A stretch of DNA of 64,000 nucleotides from Pseudomonas vranovensis DSM 16006 (GTDB lineage Bacteria > Pseudomonadota > Gammaproteobacteria > Pseudomonadales > Pseudomonadaceae), in contig NZ_KE384455.1 in NCBI RefSeq assembly GCF_000425805.1, positions 62,001 to 126,000 on the forward strand, given 5' to 3'. A program made the position numbers and the translations under genes. Each line of letters starts with the position of its first letter. The first letter of the stretch is position 1. Shown in pieces: positions 14,388-27,889 of this stretch. The notes under the pieces were generated by a model. That model saw only the letters and a list, made by a program, of their open reading frames with translations, was not told where the DNA came from and ran no database searches.

Positions 14388-16127
14388 TTATTTGCGTGCC
14401 GCATCCCAGGACTTGAGCAGTTCGCTGTAGCTGACGGTCTCGCCTTTTGGCTTCTCGTTGGCGAGTTTGGACTTGGGCGCGCCCGGCTGGTCAAACCAGT
14501 ACTGGGCATCCCGCTCCGGGTTCAGCTTGGGCGCACAGGTGGCCTGGGCCTTGGAGCGCTCGAGCCGTTCGAGGATTTTGTCCTGGTCGCGGGCCAGGCC
14601 ATCCAGGGCTTGTTGCGGGGTCTTTTCACCGCTGGCCGCTTCGGCGATATGACTCCACCACAACTGGGCCAGGCGTGGGTAATCCGGCACGTTGGTGCCA
14701 GTGGGCGTCCATTGCACCCGCGCCGGGCTGCGATAGAACTCCACCAGCCCACCGAGCTTAGGCGCCAGGTCAGTCATGGCCTGGGAGTTGATGTCCGACT
14801 CGCGGATCGGCGTCAGGCCGACGATGGTTTTCTTCAGCGACACGGTCTTGGAGGTCACGAACTGAGCATACAGCCAGGCCGCCAGGCGCTGCTTCTCCGG
14901 CGTCGACTTGAGGAAGGTCCAGGAACCGGCATCCTGGTAACCAAGTTTCATCCCCTCCTCCCAATACGGCCCCTTGGGCGACGGCGCCATGCGCCATTTC
15001 GGTGTGCCGTCGGCGTTCATCACCGGCAGGCCAGGCTTGGTCATGTCGGCGGTAAAGGCGGTGTACCAGAATATCTGTTGAGCGATGTTGCCCTGGGACG
15101 GTACCGGCCCGGATTCCGAAAAGGTCATGCCCTGGGCTTCCGGTGGCGCGTAGGCACGCATCCAATCGACGTATTTCTGGGTCGCATACACCGCCGCCGG
15201 GCCATTGGTGTCGCCGCCGCGGGTGACGCTGGAGCCGACCGGGTGGCAGTCCTCCACACGAATGCCCCACTCATCCACAGGCAAGCCATTGGGCAGCCCC
15301 TTGTCGCCACCACCGGCCATGGAGAACCAGGCATCAGTGAAGCGCCAGCCCAGCGACGGGTCTTTCTTGCCGTAGTCCATGTGCCCGTAGACACGCTTGC
15401 CGTCGATCTCTTTCACGTCTTCGCTGAAGAACTTGGCGATGTCTTCATAGGCTGACCAGTTCACCGGCACGCCGAGTTCATAGCCGTACTTTTCCTTGAA
15501 CCTGGCCTTGAGGTCCGGGCGATCGAACCAGTCGGCACGGAACCAGTAGAGGTTGGCGAACTGCTGGTCCGGCAACTGGTAGATCTTGCCATCAGGCGCG
15601 GTGGTGAACGAGATGCCGATAAAGTCCTTCAGGTCCAGCGTTGGCGAGGTGTAGTCCTTGCCTTCGTTGGCCATAAGGTCAGTGATGGACTCGGTCTTGC
15701 CATAGCGAAAATGCGTGCCGATCAAGTCCGAGTCGTTGACCCAGCCGTCATAGATGTTCTTGTCCGACTGCATCTGGGTCTGCAGTTTTTCCACCACGTC
15801 GCCTTCCTGCAGCAGGTCGTGGGTCAACTTGATGCCGGTGATTTCGCTGAAGGCTTTGGCCAACACCTTTGATTCATATTCATGGGTGGCAATGGTTTCC
15901 GACACCACGTTGATTTTCATGCCGCGAAACGGCTCGGACGCCTTGATGAACCACTTGAGCTCCTCAAGCTGTTGCTCCGGGGTCAGGGTCGAAGGCTTGA
16001 ACTCGCTGCCGATCCATTTCTTTGCTGCATCTTCATAGGCGTCTGCCCAGGCGCTGGCGTTGAAGCTGCCCAGTACGAGCAATGCAGCCAGGGTCAAATG
16101 TCGCCGGTTCTTGTTGTTGTCGAACAT
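14388..16127 (-). CDS. ABC importer solute-binding protein, glycerol/polyol type (GlpV-like)
   Basis: A 579-residue periplasmic binding protein of the large extracellular family 1 type. The signal peptide (HLTLAALLVLGSFNASAWADA, cleaved near residue 29) is followed by a long mature protein with the LTHDLLQEGDVVEKLQTQMQ-type ligand pocket region. ATG 16127 (MFDNNKNRRHL) has GGGAG upstream; an in-frame extension to 16208 runs back into the next gene. The operon order matches glpSTPQUV of Rhizobium leguminosarum, where it transports glycerol. Substrate here is inferred; no glycerol kinase or dehydrogenase gene lies beside it. Confidence 0.85.
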   Translation of the reverse strand: MFDNNKNRRHLTLAALLVLGSFNASAWADAYEDAAKKWIGSEFKPSTLTPEQQLEELKWFIKASEPFRGMKINVVSETIATHEYESKVLAKAFSEITGIKLTHDLLQEGDVVEKLQTQMQSDKNIYDGWVNDSDLIGTHFRYGKTESITDLMANEGKDYTSPTLDLKDFIGISFTTAPDGKIYQLPDQQFANLYWFRADWFDRPDLKARFKEKYGYELGVPVNWSAYEDIAKFFSEDVKEIDGKRVYGHMDYGKKDPSLGWRFTDAWFSMAGGGDKGLPNGLPVDEWGIRVEDCHPVGSSVTRGGDTNGPAAVYATQKYVDWMRAYAPPEAQGMTFSESGPVPSQGNIAQQIFWYTAFTADMTKPGLPVMNADGTPKWRMAPSPKGPYWEEGMKLGYQDAGSWTFLKSTPEKQRLAAWLYAQFVTSKTVSLKKTIVGLTPIRESDINSQAMTDLAPKLGGLVEFYRSPARVQWTPTGTNVPDYPRLAQLWWSHIAEAASGEKTPQQALDGLARDQDKILERLERSKAQATCAPKLNPERDAQYWFDQPGAPKSKLANEKPKGETVSYSELLKSWDAARK

Positions 16128-16177
16128 CGTGATCTCCCGATTGTGTATTCCCACGGAGCCTGGCCGAACCTGTCCGG

Positions 16178-16450
16178 TCAGCCCCAACGCATCACCACCA
16201 ACAGCCACACCAGTGACAGCAGCGAGGCCACCCAGATATTCCAGTCGCCGCCCCCGATCACCAGCAGGTGCAGGTAAGCGCTGACCAGGAGGCCGATGAA
16301 CAACCGATCGCCACGGGTGGTGGCAATCGGTAGGAAACCCCGGCGTTCCACGCAGGGCTTGCGCAACTCGAGCAGGGTCATGCCCAGCAGCAAACAGCCG
16401 ATCGCGCTAAAAAACAGCGCCGTCGGCAAGGTCCAGGCCATCCACTCCAT
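16178..16450 (-). CDS. Small membrane protein of the glycerol-type ABC operon (DUF2160, GlpU-like)
   Basis: A 90-residue integral membrane protein with about three hydrophobic helices (WTLPTALFFSAIGCLLLGMT, LFIGLLVSAYLHLLVIGGG, WVASLLSLVWLLVVM). It matches the DUF2160 family that accompanies GlpSTPQV transporters in rhizobia (GlpU); its role in transport is unknown. It lies 11 bases after the second permease gene and 50 bases before the binding-protein gene. Confidence 0.82.
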   Translation of the reverse strand: MEWMAWTLPTALFFSAIGCLLLGMTLLELRKPCVERRGFLPIATTRGDRLFIGLLVSAYLHLLVIGGGDWNIWVASLLSLVWLLVVMRWG

Positions 16451-16461
16451 CGCACGCCTCC

Positions 16462-17262
16462 TCAGACCCGGCCCAGGGCAAAGCCCTTGGCCACGTGGTT
16501 GCGGACAAACCAGATCACCAGCATGCCCGGCAGAATCGTCAACACCCCGGCCGCCGCCAGCACGCCCCAGTCGATACCCGAGGCCGACACCGTGCGGGTC
16601 ATCACCGCCGCGATCGGCTTGGCGTTCACCGAAGTCAGCGTGCGCGCCAGCAGCAGCTCGACCCAGGAAAACATGAAGCAGAAAAACGCCGTCACGCCGA
16701 TGCCCGAGCCAATCAGCGGCACGAAGATCTTCACGAAAAAGCGTGGAAAGCTGTAGCCGTCGATATAGGCGGTCTCGTCGATTTCCTTCGGCACGCCAGA
16801 CATGAAGCCTTCAAGGATCCACACCGCCAGTGGCACGTTGAACAGGCAGTGGGCCAGGGCCACCGCAATGTGGGTATCGAACAGGCCGATGGAGGAATAC
16901 AGCTGAAAGAACGGCAGCAAGAACACCGCCGGCGGAGCCATGCGGTTGGTCAGGAGCCAGAAGAACAAGTGCTTGTCACCGAGAAAGCGGTAGCGCGAAA
17001 AGGCATAGGCCGCCGGCAAAGCCACGCCCAGCGATATCACCGTGTTCAGGCACACGTAGTAGAGCGAATTGATGTAGCCGCTGTACCAGCTCGGGTCAGT
17101 GAAAATGACCCGATAGTTGTCGAGGGTAAACGCCTGCGGCCACAAGGTCAGGCCGCCGAGAATCTCGGTGTTGCTTTTGAACGACATGTTCAGCAGCCAG
17201 TAGATCGGCACCAGCAGGAACAGGATGTACAGCAACAAGGGCAGCGTCTTGCGCGGGTTCAT
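16462..17262 (-). CDS. ABC importer permease, MalG-like (GlpQ-like)
   Basis: A 266-residue inner-membrane permease with six predicted helices. The EAA coupling loop appears as PKEIDETAYIDGYSFPRFF near residues 158-176, as in MalG-type permeases. The N-terminal TLPLLLYILFLLVPIYWLL is the first helix. It is preceded by the partner permease with a 12-base gap. Confidence 0.9.
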   Translation of the reverse strand: MNPRKTLPLLLYILFLLVPIYWLLNMSFKSNTEILGGLTLWPQAFTLDNYRVIFTDPSWYSGYINSLYYVCLNTVISLGVALPAAYAFSRYRFLGDKHLFFWLLTNRMAPPAVFLLPFFQLYSSIGLFDTHIAVALAHCLFNVPLAVWILEGFMSGVPKEIDETAYIDGYSFPRFFVKIFVPLIGSGIGVTAFFCFMFSWVELLLARTLTSVNAKPIAAVMTRTVSASGIDWGVLAAAGVLTILPGMLVIWFVRNHVAKGFALGRV

Positions 17263-17274
17263 GCGGGCCGCCTC

Positions 17275-18134
<860 letters not shown>

Positions 18135-18138
<4 letters not shown>

Positions 18139-19232
18139 GGCATGGCCTCCACCAGCACATCGTTGGCATAGAGCATCAGCCACTGGGATGGAAAACTGAT
18201 CCAGGCATGCCCCTCCGGCACTGCGCGGTCTTCACCCAGGCGTACCTTCAGCGCCACACCCTCAAGCTCCAGGGTCAGGATCCGGTAGGTGCCCAAGTCT
18301 TCGATATCCACTACGCGAGCCTTGAAGGCATCATCGAAGGGGGCCTCCCGCACCTGGACGAACTCCGGGCGGATACCGACCTGCAAGCGTGCAGTGGGCA
18401 GCTGTTCCAGGCGCTCGCGCAGCGATGCCGGCAAGGGCAGCACCACGGCACCAAAGCGCACGCCGCCCGCCGCGACCTGCACCTCGATCAGGTTCATGCC
18501 CGGGCTTCCGATGAAGTAGCCGACGAAGGTATGGCGCGGCCGCTCGAAAAGTTCGCGCGGGGTGCCGAACTGAACGATCTGGCCGCCATACATCACCGCG
18601 ATCTTGTCCGCGAAGGTCGAGGCCTCCAACTGGTCGTGGGTGACGTAGATCATGGTGATGTTGAACTGCTCGTGGATCTGCTTGAGCTTGCGTCGCAGCT
18701 TCCACTTCAGGTGCGGGTCGATCACTGTCAGCGGCTCATCGAAGAGGATTGCCGAGACGTCGTCACGCACCAGGCCGCGCCCCATCGAGACTTTCTGCTT
18801 TTCGTCGGCAGTGAGGTTGCGAGCTTTTCTTTTCAGTGCCGGGCCCAGGTCCAGCACTTCGGCGATTTCCGCCACCTTGCTGCGCACCCGCGCCTCATCC
18901 ATGCCCTGGTTGCGCAGCGGAAAGGCCAGATTGTCGAACACGGTCATGGTGTCGTACACCACCGGGAACTGAAATACCTGGGCAATGTTGCGCGCCTGGG
19001 GCGAGAGGTCATTGACCACCTTGCCATCGAACAGTACCTGGCCCTGCAACGGGCTGAGCAGGCCGGAAATGATATTGAGCAAGGTCGACTTGCCGCAGCC
19101 CGAAGGCCCGAGCAAGGCGTAGGCACCGCCCTGCTCCCACACGTGTTCCAGCTCACGCAAGGCGTAGTCGTCAGCGCTACCGGGTGTGCGGCTGTAGCTG
19201 TGGGCCAGGTGCTGCAAGCGGATCTCGGCCAT
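18135..19232 (-). CDS. ABC importer ATPase with degenerate signature motif (GlpT-like)
   Basis: A 365-residue MalK-type ATPase with C-terminal regulatory domain. Walker A GPSGCGKST, the Q-loop VFQFPVV, Walker B AILFDEP and the H-loop histidine in IYVTHDQLEA are intact. The signature, usually LSGGQ, reads LTADEKQKVS. The D-loop (TVID) is also unusual. It pairs with the upstream ATPase, whose own signature is normal but whose H-loop histidine is lost. The two genes overlap by one base (TGATG), so the subunits should be made in equal amounts for a heterodimer. Confidence 0.9.
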
Positions 19233-20326
19233 CAGACACCCCTTGCTTCACGGACGCCCGGCGCCTGCACCAGCTTGCCCACGCTGTCGAACACGAACAA
19301 TTTATGCGTGGGAATGAACACCCGGATCGACGCATCGACGTTGTACTCATGCACGCCGGGCAAGTGCAGGATGATGCGAAAGTGCTCGTTGCGCACATGC
19401 AGGAAGGTTTCCGAACCGCTGATTTCTGCCAATTCCACCAGCACCGCCAGCTCCAGGTCGTCGTCGTTGGAAGGCACCAGGCTGATATGGCTGGGGCGCA
19501 CACCAAAGCGGTATTCGCCGTCGCCGATACGGCGCAGGTCAGCGTTCATCGCAAAATGCACGGCACCGGCGAAACTCACTTCGTTGCCATTGATGCGCCC
19601 GGGAATCAGGTTGATCGGCGGCTCGGAAAACAGCTCCGCCGCCAACACCGTGCGCGGCTGGTGATAGACCTTTGCGGTGGGGCCGCTCTGCACGATGCGT
19701 CCCTCATGCAGAACGGTGGTGGTGCCACCCAGGGCCAGCGCCTCATTGGGTTCGGTGGTGGCGTACACGGCAATGCAGTGACGCTGGGCAAACAGCGCGC
19801 GCATCTCCTGACGCAGCTCTTCGCGCAACTTGTAGTCCAGGTTCACCAAGGGCTCGTCGAACAGGATCAGCTCGGCATCCTTGACCAGCGCCCGAGCCAT
19901 GGCCGTGCGCTGTTGCTGCCCGCCCGACAGCTCCAGGGGCATACGCGTGAGAAACGGCTCGATACGCAGCATCTGCGCGGTCTGGTACACCTTGTGGCGA
20001 ATCTCTTCGTCGCTCACCCGTGCCTGGCGCAACGGCGAGGCAATGTTTTCGAACACGCTCAGGGTCGGGTAATTGATGAACTGCTGGTAGACCATCGAGA
20101 CATTGCGCTGGCGCACCGGCTGGCCCGTGACATCCACCCCGTTCATCAGCACCCGGCCGTGGTCGGGACGATCGAGCCCGGCCATCAGGCGCATCAGGCT
20201 GGTCTTGCCCGACAACGTGCGACCGAGCAGAACATTGAACGAGCCCGGCTCAAAACTGAGGCTGGCATCGACAATCCACGGCTGGTTATCGACGGTGCGG
20301 CTGACATGTTCCAGCGTTAGCGACAT
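19232..20326 (-). CDS. ABC importer ATPase lacking the H-loop histidine (GlpS-like)
   Basis: A 364-residue MalK-type ATPase. Walker A is GRTLSGKTS, the signature is a canonical LSGGQQQR, and Walker B is LILFDEPLVNLD. Where MalK has VTHDQ after Walker B, this protein has YATTEPNEA, so the switch histidine is a threonine. C-terminal TOBE-like domain from about residue 245. It is the first gene of the operon and starts 31 bases past the predicted transcription start of a -24/-12 promoter. Confidence 0.9.
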   Translation of the reverse strand: MSLTLEHVSRTVDNQPWIVDASLSFEPGSFNVLLGRTLSGKTSLMRLMAGLDRPDHGRVLMNGVDVTGQPVRQRNVSMVYQQFINYPTLSVFENIASPLRQARVSDEEIRHKVYQTAQMLRIEPFLTRMPLELSGGQQQRTAMARALVKDAELILFDEPLVNLDYKLREELRQEMRALFAQRHCIAVYATTEPNEALALGGTTTVLHEGRIVQSGPTAKVYHQPRTVLAAELFSEPPINLIPGRINGNEVSFAGAVHFAMNADLRRIGDGEYRFGVRPSHISLVPSNDDDLELAVLVELAEISGSETFLHVRNEHFRIILHLPGVHEYNVDASIRVFIPTHKLFVFDSVGKLVQAPGVREARGV

Positions 20327-20368
20327 GGGCGGCCCTGGTTGTTGTTATCAGACAGGCATTGGCCACAA

Positions 20369-20383
20369 AGCCAGATCCGTGCC
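20369..20383 (-). promoter_or_regulatory. Sigma54 (-24/-12) promoter of the GlpSTPQUV-like operon
   Basis: On the minus strand TGGCAC-N5-TGGC gives the GG and GC dinucleotides of the sigma54 consensus TGGCAC-N5-TTGC at the right spacing, with one mismatch in the -12 element. The start of transcription would lie near 20357, about 30 bases before the first ATG. The divergent gene encodes a sigma54 activator. Confidence 0.75.
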
Positions 20384-20448
20384 AGTACCGGGCGCTTCAG
20401 CTAAGCCATTGTCAACGCGGTATTTTTCCGGGAACCCCGGCCAATGCC

Positions 20449-20528
20449 TGTTCGCCGTTGAACACGATTGAACAGCAAGCGTTGAACACTTGAACAACCC
20501 ACGCATTGACAATGAACAGGACTGAACA
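20449..20528. promoter_or_regulatory. Cluster of TGAACA repeats, likely activator binding sites
   Basis: Six copies of (N)TGAACA begin at 20458, 20468, 20482, 20490, 20512 and 20522. Four are exact TTGAACA. The first is part of an inverted repeat, TGTTC-N5-TGAACA, at 20449-20464. The cluster lies about 90-170 bases upstream of the predicted sigma54 start and 50-130 bases before the activator gene, the usual place for enhancer sites and autoregulation. Confidence 0.7.
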
Positions 20529-20578
20529 ACACTGGATCACACAAAAACAACAGCACTGCCCCGGCAGAGGGAAGGCCC

Positions 20579-22360
20579 ATGGCCGTATCCGCCCCCACCC
20601 ATGCCCAACTGATCCAGGCGTCCTGGGCGCGCTGTCGCGAGTACGGCCTGACACCGCAAAACACACCCGACTTCGATCAGTTGTCCGGCACTCACCTTGG
20701 CGAGCTGCTCGAGCGCCAGCAGGTGCTGTTGCGCACCACCCGCGACGAGGTCATGCCGCAGTTCAGTCACCTGTTGGGCAACTCCAGCTACCTGATCATG
20801 CTCAGCGATGAGCAAGGTCGCCTGCTGGACACCTGGGGCACCCGGCGCTTCATCGACCCGCATCAGCAGCACGGTTTTGTCGCCGGTGCCCGCTGGCTGG
20901 AACAGGGCGTGGGCACCAACGCCATTGGCACCGCGCTGGCCTGCGCCCAGGCTGTGCATGTGGGCCAGGATGAACACTTCCTCAAACTCAACCGCTACAT
21001 GGCCAGCGCCGCTGCGCCGCTGATCGATGCCGAGCGCCGCCTGATCGGCGTGCTCGATGTATCCAGCGACAGCTACCTGCCCGCCTCGCAAACCCTGGGC
21101 CTGGTGCGGATGATGAGCCAGAGCCTGGAAAACCGCCTGATCATGGCCCGCTATGCCGGGCACTGCCGGCAACTGAGCTTCAACTCAGGCTCGAACAACC
21201 TCGACAGCCAATGGGCCGGCCTGCTGCTGTTCGATGACCTGGGACGCATCCTTGCCGCGAATCGACGGGCCGACAGCCTGCTCGGCCAGTCGCCCCTGCA
21301 GCAGCGTCTTGAGCAAGTCTTCCAGACACCGCTGACGGAGCTGCTCAAGCACGCACCCGGTGAGCCCTTTGCCGTGCAGGTGACCGGCCGCAACCGCTTT
21401 CATTGTTTATTGCATGAGCCGCTGCAACGTCCCGCTCCGTTCGCCGTCAAGCCACCTGCACATGAAGGCGACCCACGGATCGGCAAGGCCCTGCAACAGG
21501 CCGGCCTGCTGCTGGAAAAAGACATCCCGGTGTTGATCCAGGGCGAAACCGGGGTCGGCAAGGAAGTGTTCGTCAACGCCCTGCACGCCGCCAGCAGCCG
21601 TCGTCACCAGCCGCTGATTGCCGTCAACTGCGCTTCAATCCCGGCAGAACTGGTAGAGTCGGAACTGTTCGGCTATGAAAAAGGCGCTTTCACAGGCGCC
21701 CACCACAAGGGCAACCCGGGGCTGATCCGCAAAGCCGACCACGGTATCGTCTTTCTCGACGAAATCGGCGACATGCCGCTGTCGACCCAAGCGCGGTTGT
21801 TACGCTTTCTTCAGCAACGCAGCATCCAGCCACTGGGCAGTGGCGAGCCGGTAGCGGTGGATATCCGAGTGGTCTCTGCCACCCACCAGGACCTGCCCGC
21901 ACTGGTACGCCAAGGTCGTTTCCGCCAGGATCTCTACTACCGCATCGCCGGCATGAGCCTGACCTTGCCGCCTTTGCGCGAGCGCAGCGACCGCCTGGCC
22001 CTGATCAGGCAGATCCACCAGCAGCACCGCGCCCCCGATGCGCCCGGGCAGCTCGACAGCAACATCCTGCAGCACCTGTTGCAACACCCTTGGCCAGGCA
22101 ACCTGCGCCAGTTGAGCAGCACCCTGCAGGTAGCCCTGGCCCTGGCCGACGGCCAGCCCATTGCCGTGGAGCATTTGCCGGACAGTTTCCTGGCCGAAAC
22201 GGTGGCCCCTCCGTGTGTCGGGCGCAATGCAGCCGAAGAGGACCTGAGCCTGCGCCTGCGGGCACTCAACGGCAACGTATCGGCCCTGGCCCGAGACCTG
22301 GGAATCAGCCGCACCACCCTCTACAAGCGCCTGCGCGACCAGGGCCAAATAGTCGGTTGA
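20579..22360 (+). CDS. Sigma54-dependent activator, AcoR family
   Basis: An enhancer-binding protein of 593 residues. Residues 60-190 form a GAF-like sensor (EQGVGTNAIGTALACAQAVHV is the AcoR-type signature). A second linker domain follows, then the AAA+ domain: Walker A GETGVGKE near residue 324, the sigma54-contact loop ESELFGYEKGAFTGA near residues 360-375, and Walker B GIVFLDEIGDMP. The C-terminus has a Fis-type helix-turn-helix (VSALARDLGISRTTLYKRL). It is divergent from the ABC operon and almost certainly controls it. The inducer is unknown. Confidence 0.92.
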   Translation: MAVSAPTHAQLIQASWARCREYGLTPQNTPDFDQLSGTHLGELLERQQVLLRTTRDEVMPQFSHLLGNSSYLIMLSDEQGRLLDTWGTRRFIDPHQQHGFVAGARWLEQGVGTNAIGTALACAQAVHVGQDEHFLKLNRYMASAAAPLIDAERRLIGVLDVSSDSYLPASQTLGLVRMMSQSLENRLIMARYAGHCRQLSFNSGSNNLDSQWAGLLLFDDLGRILAANRRADSLLGQSPLQQRLEQVFQTPLTELLKHAPGEPFAVQVTGRNRFHCLLHEPLQRPAPFAVKPPAHEGDPRIGKALQQAGLLLEKDIPVLIQGETGVGKEVFVNALHAASSRRHQPLIAVNCASIPAELVESELFGYEKGAFTGAHHKGNPGLIRKADHGIVFLDEIGDMPLSTQARLLRFLQQRSIQPLGSGEPVAVDIRVVSATHQDLPALVRQGRFRQDLYYRIAGMSLTLPPLRERSDRLALIRQIHQQHRAPDAPGQLDSNILQHLLQHPWPGNLRQLSSTLQVALALADGQPIAVEHLPDSFLAETVAPPCVGRNAAEEDLSLRLRALNGNVSALARDLGISRTTLYKRLRDQGQIVG

Positions 22361-22515
22361 TCGACAACATTTCCCACCGGGCTGGCGCGCAGCCGATTCT
22401 GCTGTAACACCCTGGATTTCAGCTTTACCGGCTGAGCGCCCGCTGTGCTTCAGCCGGGATTTATCCCCCGTCGCATCGACAATAGCCATACCGCCAACCC
22501 CGGATGCGTGCCTCG

Positions 22516-23433
22516 ATGCAAACAACAAATACAGTCTTGATGATCCGCCCGGCGCGGTTCGCCTTCAACCCGGACACCGCCCTCAACAACCGCTTCCAGC
22601 AAGCACTGCTCGACCCGGACCGGGCACAGCAGAAAGCGCTGGAAGAGTTCGATGACTATGTCGATACCCTGCGCCAGCATGGCGTCGAAGTGCTGGTGGT
22701 GCAGGACACCCCGGCACCCCACACCCCCGACTCGATCTTCCCCAATAACTGGTGGAGCAGCCACGCCGATGGCAGCCTGGTGCTCTATCCGATGGAAGGC
22801 CAGAACCGCCGGCTGGAGCGCAACAAAGGCGTACTCAAGGTGCTTGAAGAACGCTTCGCCGTTCGTCAGACCATCGATCTGAGCCCGCTGGAACAGCAGA
22901 GTATGTACCTGGAAGGGACTGGCAGCATGGTCCTGGATCGCCAGCACCGGATCAGCTACGCCTGCCATTCCGGTCGCACTCACACCCAGGCCCTGCGCCT
23001 GTTTGCCGAACAACTCGACTACCGCCTGTGCGTGTTCCACGCCGTCGACCGGCACCAGGCGCCGATCTATCACAGCAACGTGATGATGAGCGTGGGCCGC
23101 GGGCTCTCGGTGGTCTGCCTGCAAGCCCTTCCCGACGCCAACGAGCGCCGCGCCCTGGAGCACTCATTGCGCGACACCGGCAAGGACATCCTGGCCCTGG
23201 ACTTCGACCAGCTCGAAGGCTTTGCCGGCAACATGCTCGAAGTCCACGACAAGCAAGGCCAGCCGCTGCTGGTGATGTCGCGCAGCGCCTGGCGCTCGCT
23301 GTCGGTCGAGCAACGCAGCCAGGTCGAGCAGCACAGCCACCCGGTGGTGGTAAACATCGACCATATCGAACGCATCGGCGGCGGCAGTGCCCGCTGCATG
23401 CTCGCCGAAGTGCACCTGCCGGTGCGCCACTGA
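22516..23433 (+). CDS. ctlX: Amidinotransferase-family hydrolase, CtlX-like (citrulline utilisation)
   Basis: A 305-residue cytoplasmic guanidine/ureido-group hydrolase. The family pattern is MIRPARFAFNPDTA, the catalytic region SIFPNNWWSSHADG near residues 70-85, the histidine in PIYHSNVMMSVG, and the nucleophilic cysteine near the C-terminus in GGSARCMLAEVH. From memory the closest family is CtlX, described in Francisella as converting citrulline to ornithine. The ATG at 22516 is favoured over 22504, but neither has a clear ribosome site. It is followed 20 bases later by ornithine cyclodeaminase, which would use the product. Confidence 0.8.
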   Translation: MQTTNTVLMIRPARFAFNPDTALNNRFQQALLDPDRAQQKALEEFDDYVDTLRQHGVEVLVVQDTPAPHTPDSIFPNNWWSSHADGSLVLYPMEGQNRRLERNKGVLKVLEERFAVRQTIDLSPLEQQSMYLEGTGSMVLDRQHRISYACHSGRTHTQALRLFAEQLDYRLCVFHAVDRHQAPIYHSNVMMSVGRGLSVVCLQALPDANERRALEHSLRDTGKDILALDFDQLEGFAGNMLEVHDKQGQPLLVMSRSAWRSLSVEQRSQVEQHSHPVVVNIDHIERIGGGSARCMLAEVHLPVRH

Positions 23434-23453
23434 TTACAACAAAGGAGTTCATC

Positions 23454-24500
23454 ATGACCCGCTATATCGACATTACCGATCTCAGCCACCTGGTGGCGCG
23501 CAAGGGCCTTGGCACCTGCATCAGCGAGATGGCCGAGTACATTCGTGAGGACTACCTGCGCTGGCACGACTTTGAAAAATGCGCGCGCCTGGCCAACCAC
23601 TCACCCGATGGCGTGATCGAGTTGATGCCGGTGTCCGATGCCAACCTCTATGCCTTCAAGTACGTCAACGGCCACCCCAGGAACACTCAACGCGGCATGC
23701 TCACTGTCATGGCGTTCGGCGCCCTGGGCGATGTCGATACCGGCGCACCGGTGCTGCTCAGTGAGATGACCCTGACCACCGCGATCCGCACCGCCGCCAC
23801 CTCGGCCCTGGCCGCACGCTACCTGGCGCGCCCGGGCAGCCGACGCATGGCCCTGATCGGCAATGGCTCGCAGAGCGAATTCCAGGCCCTGGCTTTCCAC
23901 ACCCTGCTGGGTATCGACGAGATCCGCCTGTACGACCTGGACCCTGCGGCCAGCGCCAAGCTGGTGGCCAACCTCAGCACCTTCCCTCAGCTCAAGGTGA
24001 GCATCGCAGGCTCTGTGGCCGAGGCAGTACGCGGCGCCGACATCGTCACTACGGTGACCGCCGACAAGGCCTACGCCACCATCCTCACCCCGGATATGAT
24101 CGTACCCGGCATGCACCTCAACGCCGTGGGTGGCGACTGCCCGGGCAAGACCGAACTGCACCGCGACATCGTCGAACGCGCCCGGGTAATCGTCGAATAC
24201 GAACCGCAAAGCCGTATCGAAGGCGAAATCCAGCAGATGCCCTCCGATTCGCCCACCACCGAGTTCTGGCAGGTGGTCAACGGCCAGGTGCCGGGTCGCG
24301 AGAGCGACGAGCAAGTCACCCTCTTCGACTCGGTCGGCTTCGCCCTTGAGGACTATTCGGCCCTGCGCTACGTACTGGATGTAGCCACGGCCCTGGACAT
24401 CGGTCACGACATTGCCCTGGTGCCCGAGCTGGACAACCCCAAGGACCTCTTCGCCTTGCTGCGCCAGCCGCTGACCAGCGCCCAGAAAAAGCGCGCCTGA
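23454..24500 (+). CDS. ocd: Ornithine cyclodeaminase
   Basis: A 348-residue NAD-dependent enzyme of the mu-crystallin/OCD family that turns L-ornithine into L-proline and ammonia. The Rossmann fold is in ALIGNGSQSEFQALAFHTLL near residues 135-155, with DLDPAASAKL after the second strand, GADIVTTVTADKA, and the substrate-site motif PGMHLNAVGGDCPGKTELH near residues 218-236. The ATG at 23454 follows a strong AAAGGAG. A longer in-frame reading from 23028 runs through ctlX and is not coding. Confidence 0.92.
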   Translation: MTRYIDITDLSHLVARKGLGTCISEMAEYIREDYLRWHDFEKCARLANHSPDGVIELMPVSDANLYAFKYVNGHPRNTQRGMLTVMAFGALGDVDTGAPVLLSEMTLTTAIRTAATSALAARYLARPGSRRMALIGNGSQSEFQALAFHTLLGIDEIRLYDLDPAASAKLVANLSTFPQLKVSIAGSVAEAVRGADIVTTVTADKAYATILTPDMIVPGMHLNAVGGDCPGKTELHRDIVERARVIVEYEPQSRIEGEIQQMPSDSPTTEFWQVVNGQVPGRESDEQVTLFDSVGFALEDYSALRYVLDVATALDIGHDIALVPELDNPKDLFALLRQPLTSAQKKRA

Positions 24501-24507
24501 GGCCCCT

Positions 24508-24539
24508 CGGTTGCGCCGCGCCAACGCACGGCGCAACCG
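24508..24539. repeat. Perfect 11-bp hairpin after ornithine cyclodeaminase
   Basis: CGGTTGCGCCG and CGGCGCAACCG flank a 10-base loop, 7 bases after the ocd stop. No T run follows, so it would stabilise the message or act with Rho rather than terminate alone. The rest of the gap to 24748 shows no other feature I can name. Confidence 0.6.
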
Positions 24540-24748
24540 TAACCGCTGTCACTCAAACCCAAACAGGAGGTGGCGCAGCCGATCCGGCTGCAATTACACG
24601 TTCAACAGCAGAATCCGGCAGCCGACGCCGGTTGAAACGACACAAAAAAATCGTCGCCATCGCGCATTCTTGGCCCGACCAATCAGTCACTGACTGACCG
24701 AAGCGCTCCACTGCCCTACATCAATTATAAAACTCAGGGATTACCACC

Positions 24749-25528
24749 ATGACTTCGCTGCGCAAGCTCCTCGGCGTGCTGCTCCTTCCTTTGTGCGTAA
24801 ACAGTGTCCAGGCCAAGGAATGGACTGAAATCCGCTTCGGCGTCTACCCCGAATACCCTCCCTTTGAGTCCGTTGCCGCTGATGGCAGCCTGCAAGGCTT
24901 CGACATCGAACTGGGCAATGCCATCTGCGCCAAGCTGCAGGTCAAGTGCACCTGGGTACACAACGAGTTCGACGGCATGATCCCGGCCCTGCGGGCACGC
25001 AAGTTCGACGCCATCATGTCGTCGATGGCCGTGACCCCTGCACGCCTCAAGCAGATCGACTTCAGCGCCCGGCTGTTCCTCAGCCCCACCTCGGTGATCG
25101 TGCGCAAGGGCGCCGACTTCGGTGACACGCCCGAATCGCTCAAGGGCAAGCAGGTCGGTGTGCTGCAGGGTTCGCTACAGGAAGCCTACGCCCGTGCCAA
25201 GCTGGCGCCACTGGGTGCCCAGGTCAAGGCCTACCAGGCCCAGGACCAGAACTACGCCGACCTGATCAACGGCCGCCTGGACGCCACCCTCACCGACAAG
25301 CTCGAAGCCCAGCTCAACTTCCTGTCCCGGCCTGAAGGCGCCGACTTCCAGAGCGGCCCGGCGGTCAAGGACCCTACCCTGCCCCTGGACATCGCCATGG
25401 GCCTGCGCAAGAACGACACCGAGCTCAAGGCCTTGCTCGACAAGGGCATCGCCGCCGTCCACGCCGACGGCACCTTTGCCGCGATCCAGAAGAAGTACGT
25501 GGGCGACCTGGATATCTACAACGATTGA
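24749..25528 (+). CDS. Polar amino-acid ABC importer, binding protein
   Basis: A 259-residue periplasmic protein of the HisJ/ArgT family. Signal peptide MTSLRKLLGVLLLPLCVNSV with a cleavage after QA; the mature chain starts WTEIRFGVYPEYPPFESVA and has the LQGFDIELGNAICAKL and MSSMAVTPARLKQIDFS motifs of basic and polar amino-acid binders. Its place after ocd and before the matching permeases suggests citrulline, ornithine or arginine. It is about 250 bases from ocd, so it may have its own promoter. Confidence 0.9.
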   Translation: MTSLRKLLGVLLLPLCVNSVQAKEWTEIRFGVYPEYPPFESVAADGSLQGFDIELGNAICAKLQVKCTWVHNEFDGMIPALRARKFDAIMSSMAVTPARLKQIDFSARLFLSPTSVIVRKGADFGDTPESLKGKQVGVLQGSLQEAYARAKLAPLGAQVKAYQAQDQNYADLINGRLDATLTDKLEAQLNFLSRPEGADFQSGPAVKDPTLPLDIAMGLRKNDTELKALLDKGIAAVHADGTFAAIQKKYVGDLDIYND

Positions 25529-25601
25529 TTCGCACGCCGCCGGCCAGGGTTGACCTGGCCGGCGCTGCGCCTTGTCTTGTGTGCTGACGAGAGCCTTCAA
25601 A

Positions 25602-26327
25602 GTGAACAACTTTTTCCACTCTACCGGCTTGCATGCCTTGAGCTTGCAGGGCTTCGGCCCGCTGCTGCTGCAAGGTACCTGGATGACCGTGAAACTTGCC
25701 CTGTTGTCATTGGCCCTGAGCCTAGGTCTGGGCCTGCTGGGCGCCAGCGCCAAGCTGTCACGCCTGCGTGCGCTGCGCGTGCCGGCCACCCTCTATACCA
25801 CCCTGATCCGCAGCGTGCCGGACCTGGTACTGATCCTGCTGATCTTCTACACCCTGCAACTAAGGCTCAACGACCTGACCGAGCTGCTGGGCTGGGACTA
25901 CTTCGAGATCGACCCCTTCACGGCTGGGGTCATTACGCTGGGCTTTATCTACGGCGCCTATTTCACCGAAAACTTTCGCGGCGCGATCCTCAGCGTGCCA
26001 GCCGGGCAACTGGAGGCGGCGACCGCCTATGGCCTGAGCCGTGCGCAACGTTTTCGCCTGGTGCTGTTCCCGCAACTGATGCGTTTTGCCCTGCCGGGCC
26101 TGGGCAACAACTGGCTAGTGCTGCTCAAGTCCACCGCCCTGGTGTCGATCATCGGCCTGGCCGACCTTGTGAAGGCAGCGCAGAACGCCGGCAAGACTAC
26201 CAACAACACCCTGTACTTCCTGATCATCGCCGGGTTGGTCTACCTGCTCATCACCACCCTTTCCAACCGCCTGTTCAAGCACCTTGAGCGGCGCTACAAC
26301 ACCGGCATCAAGGAGCTGGCGCGATGA
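25602..26327 (+). CDS. Polar amino-acid ABC importer, permease (HisQ-like)
   Basis: A 241-residue inner-membrane permease. It contains the EAA coupling region PAGQLEAATAYGLSRAQRFR near residues 135-155, and the start of the fold GTWMTVKLALLSLALSLGLG. The start is uncertain: GTG at 25602 (VNNFFHSTG) fits the usual family length; earlier GTG and TTG codons in frame extend by up to ten residues. The end overlaps the second permease gene by four bases. Confidence 0.9.
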   Translation: MNNFFHSTGLHALSLQGFGPLLLQGTWMTVKLALLSLALSLGLGLLGASAKLSRLRALRVPATLYTTLIRSVPDLVLILLIFYTLQLRLNDLTELLGWDYFEIDPFTAGVITLGFIYGAYFTENFRGAILSVPAGQLEAATAYGLSRAQRFRLVLFPQLMRFALPGLGNNWLVLLKSTALVSIIGLADLVKAAQNAGKTTNNTLYFLIIAGLVYLLITTLSNRLFKHLERRYNTGIKELAR

Positions 26328-27037
26328 TCGAACTGATTCAGGAATACGGCCTGGCCTATCTCTTCAGTGATGGCACCGGGCTCTCGGGACTGGCCATGAC
26401 GTTGTGGCTGTTCATCGTCACCATGGTGCTGGGTTTCGTGCTGTCGCTGCCACTTGCCCTGGCACGCGTTTCACACACCCGGTGGCTGCGCTGGCCGGTG
26501 GAGGCCTACACCTTCGTGTTTCGCGGCACCCCGTTGTATATCCAGTTGCTGATCTGCTACACCGGCTTGTACGGCCTTGAAGTGGTGCGAGACAACGCCC
26601 TGCTCGACCAGTTTTTCCGCAATGCCTTGAACTGCACCCTGCTGGCCTTTGTGCTCAACACCTGTGCCTACACCGTGGAAATCTTCGCCGGGGCCATTCG
26701 CAACATCCCCCACGGCGAGATCGAAGCGGCCCACGCCTACGGCCTGCACGGCTGGCGCCTGAATCTGTTTGTGATACTGCCGGCCGCCCTGCGCCGTTCG
26801 CTGCCGGCCTACAGCAACGAGCTGATCCTGATGCTGCACGCCACCTCCCTGGCCTTTACCGCCACCATCGCCGACATCCTCAAGGTGGCCCGCGATGCCA
26901 ACGCTGCCACCTTTCTGACCTTCCAGGCCTTTGGAATCGCGGCGTTGCTGTACATGTTGCTGTCGTTTGCACTGGTCGGCGGCTTTCGCCTGGCCGAACG
27001 ACGCTGGATGCGTTTTCTTGTTCCTGCCCGAGGCTAA
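26324..27037 (+). CDS. Polar amino-acid ABC importer, permease (HisM-like)
   Basis: A 237-residue permease paired with the HisQ-like one. EAA loop IPHGEIEAAHAYGLHGWRLN near residues 127-146, and the N-terminal GLAMTLWLFIVTMVLGFVLS helix, with VEAYTFVFRGTPLYIQLL typical of HisM. It starts within the ATGA overlap and ends 3 bases before the ATPase. Confidence 0.92.
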   Translation: MIELIQEYGLAYLFSDGTGLSGLAMTLWLFIVTMVLGFVLSLPLALARVSHTRWLRWPVEAYTFVFRGTPLYIQLLICYTGLYGLEVVRDNALLDQFFRNALNCTLLAFVLNTCAYTVEIFAGAIRNIPHGEIEAAHAYGLHGWRLNLFVILPAALRRSLPAYSNELILMLHATSLAFTATIADILKVARDANAATFLTFQAFGIAALLYMLLSFALVGGFRLAERRWMRFLVPARG

Positions 27038-27040
27038 TCC

Positions 27041-27889
27041 ATGACTACCACCGCAACCGCCTTGTCGACCGCCGCGACGCCAGCCCTCCGCCCCAGCCCG
27101 CGTATCGCTGCCGTGGCCCAGGACGCCTCCGTCAAACTCAGCGTCCAGGAACTGCATAAAAGCTACGGTGAACACCAGGTGCTCAAGGGTGTATCCCTCA
27201 ATGCCCGCAAGGGCGACGTGATCAGCCTGATCGGTGCCAGCGGCTCGGGCAAAAGCACTATGCTGCGTTGCATCAACTTCCTCGAACAACCCGATGCCGG
27301 CGTCATCACCCTCGATGACCAGCGCATTGAAATGCGCCAGGGCCGTACCGGCAGCCGGGCGCCACACCCCGCACAACTGCAGGATTTGCGCACGCGCCTG
27401 GCGATGGTGTTTCAGCACTTCAACCTGTGGAGCCACATGACGGTACTGGAGAACATCTGCCTGGCGCCCCGCCGAGTACTGGGCGTCAGCGCCGAAGAAG
27501 CCCACGCGCGGGCGCGCAAGTACCTGGACAAGGTCGGCCTGCCGGCCCGCGCCGCCGACCAGTACCCGGCCTTCCTGTCCGGCGGTCAGCAGCAACGGGT
27601 GGCCATCGCCCGGGCCCTGGCCATGGAACCGGAGATCATTCTGTTCGACGAGCCCACCTCGGCGCTCGACCCCGAGCTGGTGGGCGAAGTACTCAAAGTG
27701 ATACAGACGCTGGCCGAGGAAGGTCGTACCATGCTCATGGTCACCCACGAGATGGGCTTTGCCCGTCAGGTGTCGAGCCAGGTGTTGTTCTTGCATCAGG
27801 GCCGGGTCGAGGAACAAGGAAGCGCCGAGATACTTGACCAGCCGCAGAGCGAACGCCTGCAGCAATTTCTTTCCAACCGTTTGAAGTGA
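27041..27889 (+). CDS. Polar amino-acid ABC importer, ATPase (HisP-like)
   Basis: A 282-residue ATPase with Walker A GASGSGKST near residues 65-73, Q-loop AMVFQHFNLW, signature LSGGQQQR, Walker B IILFDEPTSALD and H-loop VTHEMGFA. The first 30 residues (a low-complexity TTTATALSTAATPALRPSP tail) precede the normal family start, so the true start could be internal. None of the downstream candidates has a better ribosome site that I can see. Confidence 0.93.
   Translation: MTTTATALSTAATPALRPSPRIAAVAQDASVKLSVQELHKSYGEHQVLKGVSLNARKGDVISLIGASGSGKSTMLRCINFLEQPDAGVITLDDQRIEMRQGRTGSRAPHPAQLQDLRTRLAMVFQHFNLWSHMTVLENICLAPRRVLGVSAEEAHARARKYLDKVGLPARAADQYPAFLSGGQQQRVAIARALAMEPEIILFDEPTSALDPELVGEVLKVIQTLAEEGRTMLMVTHEMGFARQVSSQVLFLHQGRVEEQGSAEILDQPQSERLQQFLSNRLK

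Follow-up and report, generated by a model that had tools for sequence, protein, structure and literature searches.

A TGAACA array phased with a sigma54 promoter between an activator gene and a GlpSTPQUV-type transporter operon in Pseudomonas: a candidate glycerol-responsive switch

Which protein reads a dense cluster of TGAACA repeats lying between two divergent transcription units, and to which signal does it respond? The cluster is found in a window of 64,000 nucleotides (the whole stretch of DNA that was analysed). There, the gap between the gene of a sigma54-dependent activator and an ABC transporter operon contains a -24/-12 promoter element followed by the repeat array. These parts, their conservation, their spacing in helical turns and the gene content are read directly from the DNA. 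We consider it probable that they form a glycerol-responsive sigma54 switch, in which the divergent activator acts on the array, turns on a GlpSTPQUV-type transporter and represses its own promoter. Judged by sequence comparison, the regulatory region is real and well conserved, a known kind of switch with an unusual enhancer architecture. A search of the open-access PMC literature revealed no study that we recognised as dealing with this array or its inducer.

Components of the intergenic region

All 16-mers of the window were scored on both strands against TGGCACG-N4-TTGCW, with 12 scored letters. The site ahead of the first transporter gene, where a preliminary description of this DNA had placed a -24/-12 element, is the only one to reach 11 of 12; no 16-mer reaches 12, and eleven others reach 10. 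The array had been set 66 bases upstream of this element, but 64 bases separate the -24 side from TGTTCG; the array's extent of 80 bases, TGTTCG included, was correct. Six TGAACA copies are indeed present (Table 1). The claim that one of the six is inverted does not hold, because all six lie on the plus strand; what is inverted is an additional, imperfect half-site, TGTTCG, the seventh of the array. The divergent gene was rightly described as a sigma54 activator with a Fis-type helix-turn-helix (HTH): its product contains GAF, Sigma54_activat (PF00158, E 4e-64) and HTH_8 (PF02954, 28.0 bits, cut-off 22) domains, as well as the GAFTGA loop. The uniform orientation of the copies, the glycerol-type operon and the A-rich motifs in both leaders had been missed.

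Table 1. Features of the intergenic region and the flanking genes (window positions; half-sites are numbered H1 to H7).
Feature	Position	Strand	Basis or remark
Substrate-binding protein (GlpV-like)	14388..16208	-	homologues; true start probably ~16127
DUF2160 small membrane protein (GlpU-like)	16178..16450	-	PF09928, E 6.9e-36
Permease (GlpQ-like)	16462..17262	-	Pfam and homologues
Permease (GlpP-like)	17275..18183	-	Pfam and homologues; true start probably ~18138
ABC ATPase 2 (GlpT-like)	18135..19232	-	profile matches and homologues
ABC ATPase 1 (GlpS-like)	19232..20326	-	profile matches and homologues; first gene of the operon
AACAACAA, Crc/Hfq-type (CA) motif, ABC operon leader	20339..20346	-	motif counts in 84 regions
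-24/-12 (sigma54) promoter element of the ABC operon, TGGCACG-GATC-TGGCT	20369..20384	-	11/12 letters, unique in the window
H1, imperfect inverted half-site (TGTTCG on the plus strand)	20449..20454	-	GTTC is the consensus in an alignment of 51 regions
H2, TGAACA	20459..20464	+	copy in the window; 51-region alignment
H3, TGAACA	20469..20474	+	copy in the window; 51-region alignment
H4, TGAACA, absent from contracted arrays	20483..20488	+	copy in the window; 51-region alignment
H5, TGAACA	20491..20496	+	copy in the window; 51-region alignment
TTGACA, presumed sigma70 -35 of the activator gene, inside the array	20506..20511	+	TTGAC in 84/84 regions (TTGACA 66, TTGACT 18)
H6, TGAACA, inside the presumed sigma70 spacer	20513..20518	+	copy in the window; 51-region alignment
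H7, TGAACA, inside the presumed sigma70 spacer	20523..20528	+	copy in the window; 51-region alignment
AACACT, weak -10-like element of the activator gene, 16-bp spacer, 1-base overlap with H7	20528..20533	+	AACACT in 61/84 regions, close variants in 23/84; function inferred
AAAAACAA, Crc/Hfq-type (CA) motif, activator gene leader	20543..20550	+	motif counts in 84 regions
Sigma54 enhancer-binding protein, GAF - AAA+ (GAFTGA) - Fis-type HTH	20579..22360	+	Pfam; GAFTGA loop and C-terminus

The TGAACA half-sites are mostly direct repeats, with steps of 10, 14, 8, 22 and 10 bp, and H1 and H2 together form TGTTCG-N4-TGAACA. Direct repeats are unusual for Fis-type activators, which are dimers. One possible way of reconciling the two is to regard TGAACA-N4-TGAACA as a quasi-palindrome, TGWWCA-N4-TGAACA, although the H4-H5 pair, with its step of 8 bp, does not fit this reading. 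The sequence TGTTCA-N4-TGAACA is an inverted element of the TGT-N10-ACA kind, as described for FhlA and NifA and for 15 groups of sigma54 activators (PMC6615313). A bolder idea, which we find doubtful but possible, is a polar ladder: the Fis-type activator would read the directly repeated half-sites as such, with one oriented ring over all seven, facing the sigma54 promoter on one side and blocking its own sigma70 promoter on the other, and evolutionary moves would occur almost only by whole helical turns.

The layout resembles that of AcoR/DhaR-kind activators in the GAF - AAA+ (with GAFTGA) - Fis-type HTH protein, the upstream array, the -24/-12 site and an inverted element of the TGT-N10-ACA type, as in many such activators (PMC6615313). 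In contrast to these, most half-sites here are direct repeats, and the array also covers the presumed promoter of the activator. The activator itself is not DhaR, scoring 246.5 bits against a cut-off of 551 (NF008485), and it falls under the curated cut-off of every other named NCBIfam equivalog listed. NtrC was rejected as the reader of the array, which is unlike the NtrC site TGCAC...GTGCA.

The position of TTGAC inside the array is fixed in all 84 Pseudomonas regions compared below, and H6 and H7 sit between it and the -10-like element. Because the -10-like element is poor in Pseudomonas, the sigma70 promoter of the activator can only be presumed; it would be covered upon occupancy of the array. 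In a distant homologue (L072), TTGACA and TATACA were found by eye 17 bp apart. Autorepression is expected, since H6 and H7 lie within this presumed promoter.

Conservation and helical phasing of the array

Of 119 Pseudomonas genomes searched for the activator, 115 contain at least some match at E <= 1e-80, and 85 carry an orthologue-grade activator (best E <= 4.2e-112, identity at least 54%, next matches near 40%; judged from the table of matches). The comparison set consists of the intergenic regions of 84 of these 85 genomes, with duplicates removed; the remaining one (G035), with array and activator on different contigs, is not among them. The divergent ATPase gene is present in all 84 regions, and so is the -24/-12 site, with 11 of 12 letters in 72 and 10 of 12 in 12. 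Exact TGAACA copies number four in 21 regions, five in 20, six in 41 and seven in 2, the commonest form having TGAACA at 0, 10, 24, 32, 54 and 64. Since 200 windows generated by an order-2 Markov model reach at most three TGAACA/TGTTCA starts per 75 bp (in 3 of the 200), against six here, the array is not a product of chance.

Scored against one fixed template (H1, H2-H7 and TTGACA; 48 letters), 62 regions reach at least 40 and 22 score less. The lower-scoring regions include arrays about 22 bp shorter, with H4 and H5 gone as judged by eye, and this contraction arose at least twice (L012; the L080 group). Six loci (L019, L031, L042, L052, L053 and L067) have an additional TGAACA 9 bp past H5. 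Together with the contracted arrays, those with the extra copy form a natural series for determining which half-sites matter. In two loci, L106 (genome G034) and L049 (G052), the activator frames are 476 and 460 aa long and the match stops at residues 450 and 439 of 593, respectively. Both keep the array and the sigma54 site, and the shortened activator represents recent damage or a sequence error.

The array is also specific to this locus. The spaced pattern TGAACA-N4-TGAACA-N(6-9)-TGAACA-N2-TGAACA occurs in 54 of the 119 genomes, once in each (reversed control 0), and all 54 belong to the 85 with the orthologue-grade activator. A collection of named species contains at least 120 array stretches; the 80 listed with titles are all from Pseudomonas. 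In 119 of the 120 matches listed (79 of 80 titled, 40 of 40 remaining), the array has the activator or ATPase 1 no more than 500 bp away, the sole exception being a 344-bp fragment (L166). Among the titled matches, the activator is within 500 bp in 72 and the ATPase in 73, and most of those lacking one end at the locus edge.

Within its own genome, TGAACA-N(2-5)-TGAACA occurs 11 times, three times in this array and eight times scattered singly, while the reversed pattern is absent. The two isolated pairs with N4 or N2 spacing were examined (the remaining six are all N3), and neither has a close sigma54 site: the nearest candidates score 10/12 at about 670 and 980 bases from one pair (L005) and 9/12 at about 1270 bases from the other (L256). 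The inverted form TGTTCR-N4-TGAACA has 10 exact places in the genome, including that of the array. With the array seen only beside the activator-ABC pair, the regulon seems to comprise one operon and the activator, perhaps with single sites elsewhere.

An activator that loops to polymerase requires phase-locked spacing. Measured from the -24/-12 element, the TTGACA core lies at 89/90 bp in 20 regions, 100/101 in 13, 111/112 in 21, 120/121 in 12, 123/124 in 9 and 131-134 in 9, thus shifting in steps of about 10.5 bp. The phasing conclusions rest on this distance, since in many rows it is ambiguous which inverted element to take. At a period of 10.5 bp, phase coherence reaches 0.85 for the complete set of regions and 0.78 when each of the 14 distinct values is counted once; the maximum is broad, at 10.5-11 bp. 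For the distinct values of ABC leader length and array-to-activator distance it is 0.18 and 0.14, respectively. As most leaders are nearly equal in length, the ABC leader with all rows included gives 0.57-0.69 whatever period was tried, and its 0.66 at 10.5 bp falls within that range. The nine regions of the 123/124 bp class deviate from phase by about 2.5 bp and count against the rule.

On a quick DNA tree built from 675 bases per region, with weak support for 33 of its 81 inner branches, no fewer than 18 changes are needed to account for the six length classes. We compared 13 independent pairs with non-overlapping tree paths and spacings differing by more than 3 bp. The promoter-array distance differs by whole helical turns, within 1.5 bp, in 12 of the 13 pairs, three of the 13 reflecting the internal 22-bp contraction. 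For the neighbouring spacers of the same pairs, again with differences above 3 bp, whole turns are found in 1 of 5 (leader) and 2 of 9 (activator side). Since the spacing changes mostly by whole helical turns, array and promoter appear to act jointly, and we regard this phasing as the strongest evidence that they work together. The phase-locked array would then be the trace left by an activator that loops to sigma54 polymerase. With promoter-to-core distances of ~90, 100, 111, 121 and 132 bp, the natural length series offers a ready set for studying the DNA-loop geometry of sigma54 activation.

Transporter cargo and the P. putida counterpart

The six genes of the operon, encoding two ATPases, two permeases, a DUF2160 protein and a binding protein, have the composition of GlpSTPQUV, a glycerol ABC transporter that is under the repressor GlpR in Rhizobium and Cupriavidus (PMC7912956). 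The component set and its order are identical to those systems; unlike there, where the operon adjoins GlpR, it is here divergent from a sigma54 activator (PMC7912956). The binding protein matches no Pfam family above its cut-off, and both ATPases match UgpC best among the NCBIfam models, at scores far below its cut-off. None of glpR, glpD and glpK lies near the operon in the window; the genome's own glpFKRD genes are on contig C4 and the window is on contig C6. A class-level search of 274 genomes detected ATPase 1 at E <= 1e-100 in nine genomes besides its own. All nine loci adjoin glpR and/or glpD, and the activator is present in none of the stretches read, four of which span only 3.5-4.1 kb. 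In partial alignments, the binding protein shares 58-70% identity with its counterparts in eight of these activator-free loci; in the ninth the counterpart lies beyond the stretch.

Because of this operon composition and the linkage of homologues to glpR and glpD, glycerol or a close derivative is our best guess for both cargo and inducer. The preliminary description held that the inducer was apparently not obvious from known AcoR-type systems, but a GlpSTPQUV-type operon makes a glycerol-related compound the obvious candidate. The link is further supported by an activator homologue located directly beside glpR (L072, a 3953-bp contig without ABC genes) and by the Cupriavidus and Rhizobium precedent (PMC7912956). 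Against the glycerol reading stand the UgpC match of the ATPases and the treatment of PP_2260/3, discussed below, as a glycerol-3-phosphate transporter (PMC9358898). GlpF and GlpR are also encoded in the genome, and a second glycerol system is thus not required.

The locus PP_2259 / PP_2260-2264 of P. putida KT2440 is presumed, from gene order and annotation, to be the same; two P. putida strains (L167 and L191) carry the array. There too a sigma54 regulator adjoins a sugar-type ABC operon, and PP_2259 has already been proposed as the regulator of PP_2260-2263 (PMC7801951). The parts of that article used here give no binding site, inducer or promoter structure (PMC7801951). Nitrogen limitation on gluconate, with no added glycerol, raised PP_2260-2263 by 17.4, 39.9, 11.3 and 9.8 fold in the wild type; in an rpoN mutant the corresponding values were 6.7, 8.0, 6.3 and 7.6 fold (PMC7801951). 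PP_2259 is not significant in the table for any of the three strains, while the discussion calls it significantly upregulated (PMC7801951). That induction is lowered yet persists in the rpoN mutant speaks against a strict requirement for sigma54. However, these data are hard to read, because the urt genes, cited as NtrC-induced, respond in the rpoN mutant as well (PMC7801951). Expression in an rpoN mutant was one of the two points on which the preliminary description had staked its sigma54 switch, and the published counterpart data give a mixed answer: induction is reduced, but still 6-8 fold (PMC7801951). Its proposal of an inducible switch that may also control the activator gains from the comparison, in which the -24/-12 site, TGAACA and TTGAC are kept together in 84/84 regions with turn-wise spacing, and loses from this persisting induction. 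In other work, a transposon was found in PP_2260 in a fast xylose grower (PMC8601172).

The same activator, array and sigma54 promoter could respond to another signal or move another cargo, such as glycerol-3-phosphate, another polyol or a nitrogen-status signal. The response of PP_2260-2263 to nitrogen limitation on gluconate would suit this, as would the treatment of PP_2260/3 as a glycerol-3-phosphate transporter (PMC9358898) and the GlpF already present. We nevertheless judge it unlikely, given the operon composition, the linkage to glpR/glpD in 9/9 activator-free loci and the identity of the binding protein to those of eight of them.

Proposed mechanism and the GlpR alternative

For the glycerol-responsive sigma54 switch, we propose that oligomers of the activator bind the TGAACA array, about 90 to 170 bp upstream of the expected transcription start. 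The DNA would loop, allowing the activator to contact sigma54 polymerase at the -24/-12 site and to open the promoter by ATP hydrolysis. A glycerol-related ligand at the GAF domain would thus switch on the GlpSTPQUV-type transporter, while occupancy of H6 and H7, between TTGACA and the -10-like element, would hold down expression of the activator. The binder, the inducer, the direction of autoregulation and the action of Crc are what we infer here.

Catabolite control may add a further layer. Target mRNAs of Crc/Hfq carry an A-rich CA motif, AANAANAA, near the start codon. This motif occurs no more than 34 nt ahead of the first ABC gene in 77 of the 84 regions (3.3 in mononucleotide shuffles) and no more than 70 nt ahead of the activator start in 76 (4.8 in shuffles). 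Carried by both leaders, motifs of this type would impose an additional, translational repression as long as the cell has better carbon sources. In P. putida, the binding protein PP_2264 is up 2.3-9.2 fold on overexpression of CrcY or CrcZ, and the CA motif is mentioned (PMC12533007). The main text of a Crc-regulon prediction does not contain the numbers 2259, 2260 and 2264 (PMC3003667).

Relatives outside Pseudomonas bear on the identity of the reader. Among 194 genomes searched at the level of the order, four beyond the genus have the activator at E <= 1e-130 (L072-L075). The activator is divergent from ABC genes in L132, L133, L134 and a Photobacterium replicon (L255), and in L134 glpR and glpD follow about 1.9 kb past the activator. 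The activator-ABC gaps contain nine (L073), five (L074), four (L075) and two (L255) TGAACA/TGTTCA half-sites, against 0.16-0.29 in shuffles, in arrangements that differ from the Pseudomonas array. The best -24/-12 scores are 10/12 in L073 and L255 and 9/12 in L074. L075 counts against the rule: TGGCACG is visible by eye, without GC at -12, and its best scored site reaches 6. The GlpR-type, activator-free operon leaders (six leaders from five loci) have no sigma54 site above 8/12. Upstream of the activator homologue in L072, the repeats are CGAACA instead of TGAACA, and both the activator and GlpR could claim them.

GlpR, the DeoR-family repressor of glycerol genes, might itself read the array as a tandem operator, instead of the activator or in competition with it; we consider this quite improbable. 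The E. coli GlpR operator is the palindrome TGTTCG-N4-CGAACA, similar to the TGTTCG-N4-TGAACA of the array. The genome's own glpR-glpD gap (L126 1776-1791, contig C4) holds TGAACATTAATGTTCA, a possible GlpR operator resembling the half-sites, the CGAACA repeats of L072 point the same way, and loss of GlpR derepresses the homologous operon in Cupriavidus (PMC7912956). The likeness to GlpR operators lies in related half-site letters and in glycerol genes. Yet it is a resemblance only: the TGAACA copies are mostly direct, without the CG of the operator, and TGAACATTAATGTTCA is differently arranged, so that the palindrome is found in neither. Moreover, the activator-free leaders contain 0-1 TGAACA/TGTTCA half-sites, against 2-9 in the activator-linked gaps, and by eye show TTTCG/CGAAA or CGAACA elements instead. 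The upstream region of the genome's own glpF has a single TGTTCA only. Finally, the array is phase-locked to the sigma54 site, which would be needless for a repressor. A chance or neutral cluster without function is practically dismissed by the Markov windows and by an array kept in 84/84 regions at fixed geometry while the flanking lengths differ.

The sigma54 switch points to a second, probably glycerol-responsive, control circuit besides GlpR, with a probable recognition sequence, in a genus that is in use for growth on crude glycerol. The comparison also suggests how this transporter family switched between control by the GlpR repressor and control by a sigma54 activator. In Cupriavidus metallidurans, derepression of the homologous ABC operon leads to zinc and cadmium resistance (PMC7912956).

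The block next to the activator (22504-27889) is of the arginine/ornithine type and apparently unrelated to the switch. It contains a citrulline hydrolase, CtlX (22504-23433), beside the activator and an ornithine cyclodeaminase (23433-24500), both over their NCBIfam cut-offs, and an ArgT-like binding protein (24749-25528, below cut-offs) with ABC-type ORFs.
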